A stretch of DNA of 64,000 bases from NCBI RefSeq assembly GCF_002198115.1, contig NZ_NGNR01000001.1:1-64000 (forward strand), in the 5' to 3' direction. Each line of letters starts with the position of its first letter. The stretch's first letter is position 1. Shown here piece by piece: positions 41,616 to 43,923 of the stretch. The notes under the pieces were generated by a model. That model did no database searches and was not told the origin of the DNA. It was given only the letters and a program-made list of their open reading frames with translations. Made by a program: the position numbers and the translations under genes. This DNA is from Robiginitalea sediminis. Lineage in GTDB: Bacteria > Bacteroidota > Bacteroidia > Flavobacteriales > Flavobacteriaceae.

Positions 41616-42966
41616 GTTTCATTTTTTTCAAATACTCCCGCGCTGCGGCATTCACACGCGGTGCCAGCAAAAGTACCGCAATCATGTTCGGGATCACCAT
41701 AAGGGCATAGGACAGGTCGATCAGGTTCTTCACCAGTTCCAGAGAGGCCACGGCCGCAAAGACGATCATCAGTACAAAATACACATTATACCACTGCCCG
41801 ATGCGGGCATTGGTCAGGAAGGAAAGACTCTTGACCCCGTAATAGGAATAGGTGAAAAGCGTAGAAAGGGCAAAGGCGGTTACAATGAGCATAAGCAACT
41901 CATCCCCCCACCCGAAAAGGGTTTTCTGGAAGGCGTTCAGGGTCATGACAATACCACTGCCGTCCTCCAGGTAGGCACCGCTGAGAATGATGACCACCGC
42001 GGTAAAGGTACAGACCATAATGGTGTCTATAAAGGGGCCCAGCATGGCCACCAGCCCTTCCCGTATGGGCTCGTTGTTGCGGGATTGGCCATGGTACATG
42101 GGCGCACTTCCTAAACCGGCCTCATTGGAGAACATGGCCCTTTTGACTCCAATTATCACCAACCCCCAGAAGCCGCCGGTCACCACCGACTTGAAGTTCC
42201 AGGCCTCGGTGAGGATCATTTTCAGGGCGGGCCATACCTGCCCGGCATTCATCCCCATGACCACCAATACAGCTGCCAAATACAAGAGCACCATAAAAGG
42301 GACTATGGCAGAGGCCACCCGTGCGATCTTTTTCAACCCCCCGAATATGACAAAGGAGGTGATGACTGCCAGCAGTATCCCGATACTGAGTTGCCAGTTG
42401 AAGTCGCTGGTCGCATAGAGGGTCTCACTTGGGCGGACCACACTCATAAAGGTTTCGGTAAACTGGTTGGCGGTGAATACTCCAAGAAAGCCAAAGAGCC
42501 CGCAGATACTGAAGAAAATGGCAAGAGGCCTGGCTTTTGGCCCGAGGCCCCGGGTAATGTAAAACATGGGGCCGCCCTGGGGTTTCCCATCGGAATCCAC
42601 CCCCCTGTACATAATGGCCAGGCTGCAGGAATAGTACTTGATACACATCCCGATCAGGGCCGTCATCCAGATCCAGAAGACCACCCCGGGCCCGCCGTCG
42701 TGGATGGCAATGGCCACCCCCGAGATGTTTCCAAGGCCCACCGTGGCAGCTACTGCAGCCGATAAGGCCTGGAAGGAGCTCACCTCCCCCTCGGCTTTTT
42801 TATCGTCGTATTTGCCCGCGGTAATCGCCAGGGCATGGCGGAAAAACCGATAGGGTAAAAAGCGGGAATAGACCACCAGGAAAAGCCCTCCCCCTATGAG
42901 CAACACAAACATGGGCCACTCCGCATAGCTGTTGGCCCCTACCAAAAAGTCGTTGATTGCTTCCAT
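41602..42966 (-). CDS. Alanine/glycine:cation symporter family protein
   Basis: The 454-residue product has about eleven hydrophobic segments and the AGCS family signature LSAAVAATVGLGNISGVAIAIHDGGPGVVFWIW. Other family marks are GGPMFYITRGLG and FSNEAGLGSAPMYHG. Such carriers take up alanine or glycine with sodium across the inner membrane. It overlaps the start of era by 14 nt and is likely the first gene of that unit. The 5' flank has a TACCTTCG box just before the ATG, which is not compelling as a promoter. Confidence 0.92.
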   Translation of the reverse strand: MEAINDFLVGANSYAEWPMFVLLIGGGLFLVVYSRFLPYRFFRHALAITAGKYDDKKAEGEVSSFQALSAAVAATVGLGNISGVAIAIHDGGPGVVFWIWMTALIGMCIKYYSCSLAIMYRGVDSDGKPQGGPMFYITRGLGPKARPLAIFFSICGLFGFLGVFTANQFTETFMSVVRPSETLYATSDFNWQLSIGILLAVITSFVIFGGLKKIARVASAIVPFMVLLYLAAVLVVMGMNAGQVWPALKMILTEAWNFKSVVTGGFWGLVIIGVKRAMFSNEAGLGSAPMYHGQSRNNEPIREGLVAMLGPFIDTIMVCTFTAVVIILSGAYLEDGSGIVMTLNAFQKTLFGWGDELLMLIVTAFALSTLFTYSYYGVKSLSFLTNARIGQWYNVYFVLMIVFAAVASLELVKNLIDLSYALMVIPNMIAVLLLAPRVNAAAREYLKKMKHERA

Positions 42967-43041
42967 GAGATGTGCCGAAGGTAGGGAATTTGGTCAAATG
43001 GACCACTGCCGTAAAATCCACCCCGAATTCCGATGCCAAAG

Positions 43042-43072
43042 TTTGCAGAACCAAGAAACCTTCGTATATTTG
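43042..43072 (+). promoter_or_regulatory. Promoter of tRNA-fMet
   Basis: TTTG at 43042-43045 and TATATTTG at 43065-43072, 19 nt apart, match the Bacteroidetes consensus exactly. The tRNA begins 11 nt after the -7 box. Confidence 0.88.
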
Positions 43073-43082
43073 CCGTCCACAT

Positions 43083-43155
<73 letters not shown>

Positions 43156-43160
43156 CAAGG

Positions 43161-43192
43161 AAAACCGGTCGCCAGAGGCGATCGGTTTTTTT
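43161..43192 (+). terminator. Intrinsic terminator of tRNA-fMet
   Basis: AAAACCGGTCGCC (43161-43173), loop AGA, GGCGATCGGTTTT (43177-43189), then more Ts. The 13-bp stem has one G-T wobble. Confidence 0.88.
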
Positions 43193-43270
43193 GTTCATGG
43201 AAAAGCCAAATTTATTTGAGCTTTGGAATGGACAAAAAACCGAAGCGGATGCACAGCATCTGCCGGTTTT

Positions 43271-43335
43271 CCTTGTGAAGCTCTCCCATTCTGGCCCTTT
43301 TCCGACTGAAGGGAGGAAAAGAATCCAGTCCCACC
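43271..43335 (+). repeat. Structured element, copy A
   Basis: This is the first of three diverged direct copies of the outline CCTTGTGAAGC-CTCCC-GGCCC-hairpin-AATCCAGTCC-ACC. Its hairpin has outer stem CTTTTCC/GGAAAAG (43297-43303 with 43315-43321), then GA on both sides, and a short inner CT/GG closing a GAA loop. Confidence 0.75.
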
Positions 43336-43340
43336 AGAGA

Positions 43341-43368
43341 AAATTCCAAATTCCAAATTCCAAATTCC
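43341..43368 (+). repeat. Four tandem AAATTCC heptamers
   Basis: AAATTCC is repeated four times exactly, directly after copy A, followed by AAACC. It is a simple-sequence tract of unclear role. Confidence 0.85.
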
Positions 43369-43387
43369 AAACCTGCCTGCTGTTACT

Positions 43388-43449
43388 CCTTGTGAAGCCC
43401 TCCCTTTGGCCCATTTCGAGGCAAAGCCGAGAAATGAATCCAGTCCACC
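43388..43449 (+). repeat. Structured element, copy B
   Basis: This is the second copy. The hairpin has outer stem CATTTC/GAAATG (43412-43417 with 43431-43436), flanking GA/GA, inner GGC/GCC and an AAA loop. The outer stem differs from copy A on both arms in a compensating way. Confidence 0.75.
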
Positions 43450-43473
43450 ATGTAAAACAGGGCGGATGGCTTT

Positions 43474-43533
43474 CCTTGTTAAGCCTCCCCCAAGGCCCCT
43501 TCCGAGCAAAGCGAGGAAGCAATCCAGTCCACC
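43474..43533 (+). repeat. Structured element, copy C
   Basis: This is the third copy. The hairpin has outer stem CTTCC/GGAAG (43499-43503 with 43515-43519), flanking GA/GA, inner GC/GC and an AAA loop. The tail AATCCAGTCCACC is identical to copy B. Confidence 0.75.
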
Positions 43534-43555
43534 AAACTACTGCACAACCGGTTTT

Positions 43556-43575
43556 CCTTGAGAAACTCCCCAAGG
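43556..43575 (+). repeat. Truncated fourth copy of the structured element
   Basis: CCTTGAGAAACTCCCCAAGG repeats the first 20 nt of the element, then similarity stops. The hairpin and tail are absent. Confidence 0.5.
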
Positions 43576-43666
43576 ATTGTTAGATATGCCTTGAAAACGT
43601 AAACTTGAGATTTGTCATACTTTGATTTATGGGGTAATCCTAATTTTATCCTATAAAACTACTGGT

Positions 43667-43804
43667 ATGTTCTTGAAAGCACTCCCCCTGGTGGGATGGG
43701 AAAACGGAATTTGGATGATCGGGCTGTTTGCCCTTGTGGTGGTTCTGCTGATTGTTGCCGTGGTTTCCATGATGAATAGTGGCAAGGGTTCTGAACCAAA
43801 ATAA
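43667..43804 (+). CDS. Small single-pass membrane protein
   Basis: The 45-residue product, MFLKALPLVGWENGIWMIGL and onward, is one transmembrane helix with a short hydrophilic tail (MMNSGKGSEPK). I prefer this ATG to one 15 codons earlier because the extension lacks support. A strong terminator follows. No family is recognised; many Bacteroidetes carry unnamed proteins of this design. Confidence 0.55.
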   Translation: MFLKALPLVGWENGIWMIGLFALVVVLLIVAVVSMMNSGKGSEPK

Positions 43805-43822
43805 GGGGTCATGCCTGAAGCA

Positions 43823-43862
43823 AAGGAGAAGCGCCCGGACCAAAGTCCGGGCGCCCCTCCTT
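43823..43862. terminator. Strong bidirectional hairpin between convergent genes
   Basis: GCGCCCGGAC (43831-43840), loop CAAA, GTCCGGGCGC (43845-43854) is a perfect 10-bp GC-rich stem. An outer AAGGAG/CTCCTT pair (43823-43828 with 43857-43862) extends it. It lies between the small membrane gene and the leftward spondin gene and can serve both. Confidence 0.8.
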
Positions 43863-43923
43863 CAACATAGGCATCCGTTTTCCCTGCTACGGCACATAGC
43901 AGACAGATGCAGAAACCTAACAA

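Follow-up and report, generated by a model that had tools for sequence, protein, structure and literature searches.

Tandem arrays of a gene-free, hairpin-rich unit beginning inside tRNA genes of Flavobacteriaceae may be built by insertion between nucleotides 59 and 60

Introduction

The closest described counterpart of the arrays reported here is the repeat of the tyrT locus of E. coli. RF00391 (RtT RNA) matches four times, at 132.9-137.5 bits, in the tyrT-tyrV-rttR locus (L373), where the units are also in tandem and begin with a tRNA 3' end. Their tails start with AATCC (AATCCTTCCCCCACCACCA) and repeat the 3' end of tRNA-Tyr, and the unit contains a complement of the tRNA 3' end. RttR is annotated as a non-coding RNA, and a role in the stringent response has been reported for RtT. 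To our knowledge, the tyrT repeat long stood as a single oddity.

Other known systems share some of these properties. Integrative and conjugative elements, prophages and satellites that integrate into tRNA genes are flanked on either side by direct repeats of the tRNA 3' end, and the tRNA is left intact. The 3' external transcribed spacers of tRNAs, such as 3'ETS-leuZ, have non-coding RNA potential directly behind a tRNA, and we know of no tRNA-tail repeat in spacers of this type. Integron attC sites and REP/IS200-type hairpins are strand-specific hairpins and occur in arrays, as in the element described here.

The window analysed is a stretch of 64,000 nt from Robiginitalea sediminis (contig NZ_NGNR01000001.1). 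It was originally predicted to contain, behind a tRNA-fMet gene, three copies and a truncated fourth copy of a structured element of 60-65 nt with no named relative. Our preferred reading, to which we would give a probability of roughly 0.4, is that this is an array of units anchored in the tRNA gene, and that gene-free insertion between nucleotides 59 and 60 of the tRNA builds such tandem arrays. No description of the element was found in the open literature collection searched with our chosen terms.

Results

Copies A, B and C and the truncated copy D lie behind the tRNA-Met(CAT) of the window as predicted (Table 1); the tRNA is presumably of the initiator type, judged by its GGG/CCC anticodon stem. 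The common blocks of copies A, B and C (CCTTGTxAAGC, a C-rich block, GGCC, a hairpin and the tail AATCCAGTCC) were found as described, and so were the hairpin arms, which vary in sequence but stay paired (CTTTTCC/GGAAAAG, CATTTC/GAAATG and CTTCC/GGAAG). The GA on both sides of the stem is kept in these three copies; among all loci this GA/GA motif beside hp4 is common but not universal, with paired bases there in G156 and G008. The size of 60-65 nt had to be revised, as the real unit measures ~178 nt, reaching back into the tRNA and including three further hairpins before copy A (43161-43263).

Table 1. Features of the array in the window. Copies A, B and C were themselves among the sequences used to build R1, so their own R1 scores are not independent.
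Feature	Position	Strand	Evidence
tRNA-Met(CAT)	43083..43156	+	ARAGORN; Rfam tRNA 64.9 bits
Start of repeating unit: tRNA 3' end TCCAGTCCCCGCTAC	within 43083..43156	+	
Trailer ACAAGGAAAACCGG	43155..43168	+	Perfect complement of copy A front; inverted repeat I6, 14/14
hp1, terminator-like hairpin with T-run	43161..43193	+	Inverted repeat I13; sequence
Hairpin M, loop TTTA	43187..43239	+	Inverted repeat I3; folds
hp3, GCGGATGC-ACA-GCATCTGC	43245..43263	+	Sequence; fold
Copy A front, reverse complement of trailer	43263..43276	+	I6
Copy A: front, C-rich block, hp4, tail	43265..43334	+	R1 75.5 bits; R3 74.4 bits
Copy A, T-stem-like CTGG	43291..43294	+	
Copy A, hp4	43297..43321	+	
Copy A, tail AATCCAGTCCCAC	43322..43334	+	
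Copy B	43382..43449	+	R1 67.2 bits; R3 66.7 bits
Copy B, hp4	43412..43436	+	
Copy B, tail	43437..43449	+	
Copy C	43468..43533	+	R1 72.9 bits; R3 68.9 bits
Copy C, hp4	43499..43519	+	
Copy C, tail	43521..43533	+	
Copy D, truncated: front and C-rich block, no hp4 or tail	43548..43575	+	Repeat family D1; front complements trailer 14/14 (inverted repeat I7)

In these marine flavobacteria, a gene-free, hairpin-rich stretch of ~160 nt follows some tRNAs, with a second copy of the tail of the same tRNA at its end. In a full unit, the tRNA 3' end from nucleotide 60 (the border of T-loop and T-stem) is followed by the trailer, the terminator-like hp1, hairpin M, hp3, the reverse complement of the trailer, a C-rich block and hp4, after which AA and the tRNA 3' end come again. 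Two identities escaped the original prediction: the tail corresponds to the 3' end of the adjacent tRNA, and the front complements the trailer of that tRNA. In the window, the tails of copies A, B and C repeat the tRNA 3' end AGTCCAGTCCCCGC from nucleotide 60, with A instead of G at nucleotide 59, and none of them is a complete tRNA 3' end. This identity with the tRNA places the unit beside RtT of E. coli tyrT, so the form is not without a named counterpart.

Both strands have open frames that run across the array, as a protein-coding repeat would. Neither long frame matches a Pfam family at E<=1, copy length varies freely and the stem arms covary, and such a repeat can practically be dismissed, in agreement with the original view that this is not a conserved protein.

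A blastn search with 43255-43580 gave matches in 17/60 relatives, the window genome included. Many of these first matches were an AAATTCC heptamer rather than the element and were set aside; the true homologues were behind tRNA-fMet and behind tRNA-Asp. The heptamer repeat adjoins copy A in the window (43341-43370) and is also present at many places in Robiginitalea and other genera, including beside the arrays L072, L015 and L019.

The exact motif CCTTGTNAAGCNNNCCC was found in 6 genomes of 149 genera, its own included, which is about equal to the reversed control, and covariance models were therefore used. With R1, built from 13 copies, the element was detected in 18/119 genomes at E<=0.01. 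The R1 copies in 10/10 Robiginitalea genomes, and a further array in the window genome with four copies at a tRNA-Asp, show that the element is not a chance match. A pattern scan indicated it in records of Eudoraea, Arenibacter, Muriicola and Maribacter, and R3, built from 45 copies, confirmed all eight stretches. The covariance-model search of relatives that had been proposed thus returned many further copies, with covarying stem arms. At E<=0.001, R3 matched 58/397 genomes and 47/237 genera of the family, 8/395 genomes of a class-wide draw and 3/395 of a phylum-wide draw; the window genome is counted each time, and the stricter filters make these counts lower bounds. Presence across the family is scattered.

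When R3 was run on 98 loci, 96 had matches, with 170 copies in all. The nearest upstream tRNA was Met(CAT) in 50, Asp in 19, Ser in 2, Cys in 1 and Leu in 1, and no upstream tRNA was found in 23/96 (contig ends, insertion-broken tRNAs or too great a distance); most of these loci were found by the models, so these counts are not a random sample of tRNAs. In Eudoraea adriatica (G359), locus L337 has a copy 21 kb from the tRNA, whose flank is common with copy 1, and element copies can therefore also stand apart from a tRNA.

A model-independent survey located tRNA-fMet and tRNA-Asp in 80 genera, giving 159 distinct loci after exclusion of a few that lay at contig ends or matched only partially. 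The tRNA's own 12-nt tail (<=2 mismatches) was present 50-700 nt downstream in 13/74 fMet and 6/85 Asp loci. By eye, 7 fMet and 2 Asp matches were the element, and the others were whole tandem tRNAs or chance. The element is also present in L126 (G008, Asp), where the tail has too many mismatches for the survey test, and in G052 (L059), whose locus was outside the fetched set, and a unit that lacks a tail is present in G077 (L172). R1, run on the survey loci that remained, gave one weak match (L172, E 0.081) in 91 sources and none in 51, which is a lower bound as R1 is blind to the short-hairpin copies L086 and L091. Most surveyed tRNA-fMet and tRNA-Asp loci are without the element.

Among the matches listed for phage records (15 of 810), only the tRNA end of the query matched, and 0/18 stretches from two pattern scans of viral contigs passed R3 at E<=0.05. 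Two further arrangements were seen at tRNA-fMet genes: L142 (G069) has tandem, 5'-only partial copies of the tRNA, ~100 nt apart, before the intact gene, and L175 (G033) has three complete genes in tandem, with no element seen.

The first copy begins 99-123 nt past the tRNA in 67/73 loci. Measured between A58 of the tRNA and the A that opens the tail, the period has a median of 178 nt for Met (n=46, range 150-204) and 189 nt for Asp (n=18, range 173-199). Helical phasing of this 178/189 spacing was rejected (Rayleigh R 0.035 at 10.5 bp).

The tail was compared with the tRNA in 68 first copies, after 5 of 73 loci were dropped. Identity to the own tRNA at T-stem positions 61-65 was 1.00, 0.97, 0.96, 0.90 and 0.78, compared with permuted values of 0.36 at position 63 and 0.53 at position 65, and it faded beyond the T-stem (0.76, 0.65, 0.50). 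At nucleotide 59, A stands in almost every tail against G in the tRNA (identity 0.07 in the 68 loci and 0.04 in the 45 Met loci). Positions 63-65 were exact in 36/45 Met loci, with a maximum of 25 in 20,000 permutations, and mismatched in 9/45; positions 61-65 were exact in 12/18 Asp loci and in none of the two Ser, one Cys and one Leu loci. Outside the class, the tRNA-Ser(GGA) locus L368 has the complete plan with a perfect 17-nt Ser tail.

The front, in turn, complements the own trailer better than those of other loci of the same tRNA, with 12.1 vs 7.5 for Met (n=46) and 7.7 vs 5.05 for Asp (n=18), each reached in 0/5,000 permutations. These permutations, like those of the tail, leave shared ancestry in, and related species are not independent. 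Element-free survey loci gave no trailer complementarity signal (5.6 vs 5.6). A CTGG/CAGG T-stem complement tracking the tail was too weak to claim.

Tails were readable in 165 of the 170 copies. Complete tRNA 3' ends make up 35/165, and a terminator-like site follows 25/35 of these, vs 17/130 truncated tails. Twenty-five complete tails are in single-copy loci, where they are trivially last, and of the 10 in multi-copy arrays 8 sit in the last copy. A complete tail is present in only 9/44 multi-copy arrays, in one of which (L304) it belongs to a copy other than the last. Only loci with complete tails are bounded at each end by direct repeats of the tRNA 3' end, and the tails in the window are truncated. 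We infer that the complete second 3' ends are displaced original tRNA ends.

The arrays could also have arisen by tandem duplication of the tRNA 3' region through slippage or unequal exchange, with gene conversion keeping the copies similar to the tRNA and the hairpins merely provoking slippage. A period near 178 nt would be expected from this, and so would the mostly incomplete inner tails, the near-identical neighbouring copies in G308 and the whole tRNA-fMet genes repeated in G033 at a spacing of about 170 nt. By eye, the repeat extends into or through the trailer in ~6 loci (L238, L236, L156, L256, L260 and L233); it passes through in L256 and, by eye, in a few others. However, duplication would have to explain a spacer of the same structure behind different tRNA kinds and outside the class, and an A59 in nearly all tails where the tRNA has G59, and we consider it unlikely.

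Covariation of the hairpins was determined over 149 distinct copies in an alignment that was fitted to the structure and so leans toward pairing, and in which related species are not independent: 89.2% of cells were paired vs 70.2% when shuffled and 39-54% when slid, two-sided changes were found in 375 cells vs 135, and the covariation score was 0.537 vs 0.234. The number of pairs with any two-sided change, 14/14, by itself barely exceeds what shuffling gives on average (12.4). The folding energy of hp4 is modest (mean z -1.59; n=143, with 36% below -2) and gives no strand preference (71/145), and a G-U strand test of hp4 was undiscriminating (63 sense vs 70 other strand).

The spacer folds better on the rightward, tRNA-sense strand in 66/68 loci and forms three hairpins in 61/68, with a T5 run 15-48 nt past the tRNA in 64/68. 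The region of M and hp3 has a mean z of -2.71 (n=66) vs -1.09 in element-free loci (n=144). In the 61 folded loci, the loop of hp1 is GNRA in at least 25, that of hairpin M is CUUG or CUCG in 36 (CUUG alone in 29) and that of hp3 is GNA in 28. The better folding of the tRNA-sense strand, with such stable loops, fits either RNA or a folded single DNA strand.

The main rival explanation is a structured non-coding RNA whose transcription would run rightward through the tRNA terminator or begin at a start of its own. It would be processed in the manner of RtT RNA or of a tRNA 3' external transcribed spacer and would act on tRNA processing or as a sponge, its tail mimicking the T-stem and the acceptor 3' strand of the same tRNA. 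The folding of the spacer, its loops and the energy of M and hp3 agree with this, together with the covariation, the many G-U pairs in the front hairpin and the annotation of the E. coli counterpart as the small RNA RttR. However, hp1 looks like an intrinsic terminator between the tRNA and the element, and few transcripts started at the tRNA promoter would be expected to read through it. The pairing of trailer and front is without a G-U preference (24 G-T vs 36 A-C mismatches) and behaves like copied sequence rather than an RNA helix. For these two reasons an RNA was kept as a real but less probable option rather than the first choice, and the scattered presence and the truncation of copies within arrays also speak against it. 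The originally predicted RNA read rightward stands as far as the folding of the spacer is concerned; hp1, the missing G-U preference and an hp4 without a strand preferred by energy leave its status as RNA putative.

Discussion

Insertion between nucleotides 59 and 60 is preferred because the tail tracks the tRNA and the front its trailer, because complete second 3' ends exist, because spacing is constant and presence scattered, and because parts of tRNAs are flanked by integrase genes in Robiginitalea G151, G149 and G153. A small gene-free DNA would enter the tRNA at this position and supply a new tRNA 3' end with its own terminator, so that the tRNA stays working, and the earlier 3' end would shift downstream, accompanied in many loci by its terminator. 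Repeated events at the same spot, either re-insertion or unequal exchange, could then produce tandem arrays, in which the inner tails would decay to ~8-10 nt. Site-specific recombination would underlie the process, and a tyrosine recombinase supplied in trans would probably carry it out, as there is no such gene within the unit; hp4 may mark the junction.

In G151 (L073), a tyrosine-recombinase gene with Phage_integrase domains adjoins a 3' part of tRNA-Asp that starts at nucleotide 60, the same start as that of the unit. In G149 (tRNA-fMet; L076) and G153 (tRNA-Asp; L077), such genes lie beside 3' parts cut near the anticodon. In all three loci, the array remains behind the 3' part of the broken tRNA. 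These integrase genes beside the same, broken tRNAs, in 3/10 Robiginitalea genomes, were found in passing. Like the genes between copies described below, they fit recombination at the tRNA and are no proof regarding the unit itself. In 18/80 family genomes, a 3' portion of tRNA-fMet that starts at the anticodon (query 27-33 to 74) is matched without the 5' portion, and in G002 and G079 no other match is listed; these are probably scars of integrated elements.

No clean empty site was found in the seven same-genus pairs compared. The downstream sequence was unaligned in six, with the upstream sequence of G402/G228 unaligned too, and in G253/G420 both genomes carry the unit. In the best pair, G395 (with the unit) and G216 (without), the upstream sequence is 79% identical up to the tRNA and the downstream sequence is unrelated. 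Both genomes have the trailer start TAAGAAAACC, and the trailer therefore need not arrive with the insertion.

Several observations weigh against insertion at nucleotides 59/60. Complete tails are few in multi-copy arrays, and that of L304 is not in the last copy; the repeats running into or through the trailer are equally explained by tandem duplication; no recombinase was tied to the unit, integrase genes having been noted in passing, and none of the viral stretches passed the model. Furthermore, many tails have mismatches, shared ancestry is kept in the permutations, and 23/96 loci have no intact tRNA in view.

The comparison with E. coli is one of plan rather than sequence. The flavobacterial units follow the same general plan as the tyrT/RtT repeat, and the sequence models do not match each other: R3 gave no match to the tyrT repeats at E<=10, and RF00391 gave none in the window (42900-43900) at E<=1 and none at gathering in L012, L072, L368, L086, L156 and L203. 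In these six loci and the window stretch, only tRNA was found at gathering among the other Rfam families. The E. coli spacing, 175 nt behind tyrT and 178 nt three times behind tyrV, is near the flavobacterial medians. In the predicted fold, a stem-loop ends ~5 nt before the tail in the three later RtT units and is weak in the first, and stretches like GAGCGNNAGCGAG can be recognised by eye. The units differ in that the one of E. coli is closed by 10 bp complementary to the tRNA tail, encodes the CCA, includes the annotated small gene tpr and is without a T-run terminator right after the tRNA, whereas the flavobacterial unit has trailer and anti-trailer arms, the hp1-M-hp3 series, a C-rich block and hp4. 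Unlike tRNA-integrated elements, the unit is ~160 nt and has neither genes nor a recombinase.

The RtT-like plan is now seen on different tRNAs, in 47/237 sampled genera of one family and on a tRNA-Ser outside the class, so its origin and use can be tested by comparison. If the insertion reading is true, it is an example of how an insertion that has no genes can rebuild a tRNA gene and leave its function intact. A broader and rather improbable proposal is that these units and the E. coli tyrT repeats form one unrecognised class of minimal gene-free integrative elements, which would enter at 59/60 through hp4 folded as a single strand, with a recombinase in trans; each lineage would be fitted to one tRNA by its copied tail and anti-trailer, and RtT RNA would be a fossil insertion.

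Genes were seen between copies in a few loci. In G308 (L289, 1389-1808, complement), a SnoaL-like gene, just below the Pfam cut-offs, lies between copies behind tRNA-fMet, which is a likeness to attC arrays; the attC core boxes RYYYAAC/GTTRRRY were not recognised by eye in the copies inspected. Another small gene lies between element copies in G253, and open frames do so in G206. Finally, L027 (G177) and L059 (G052) belong to two families of the order, and by eye their units resemble each other closely, down to the terminator that follows the tail, which could be explained by either old inheritance or transfer.
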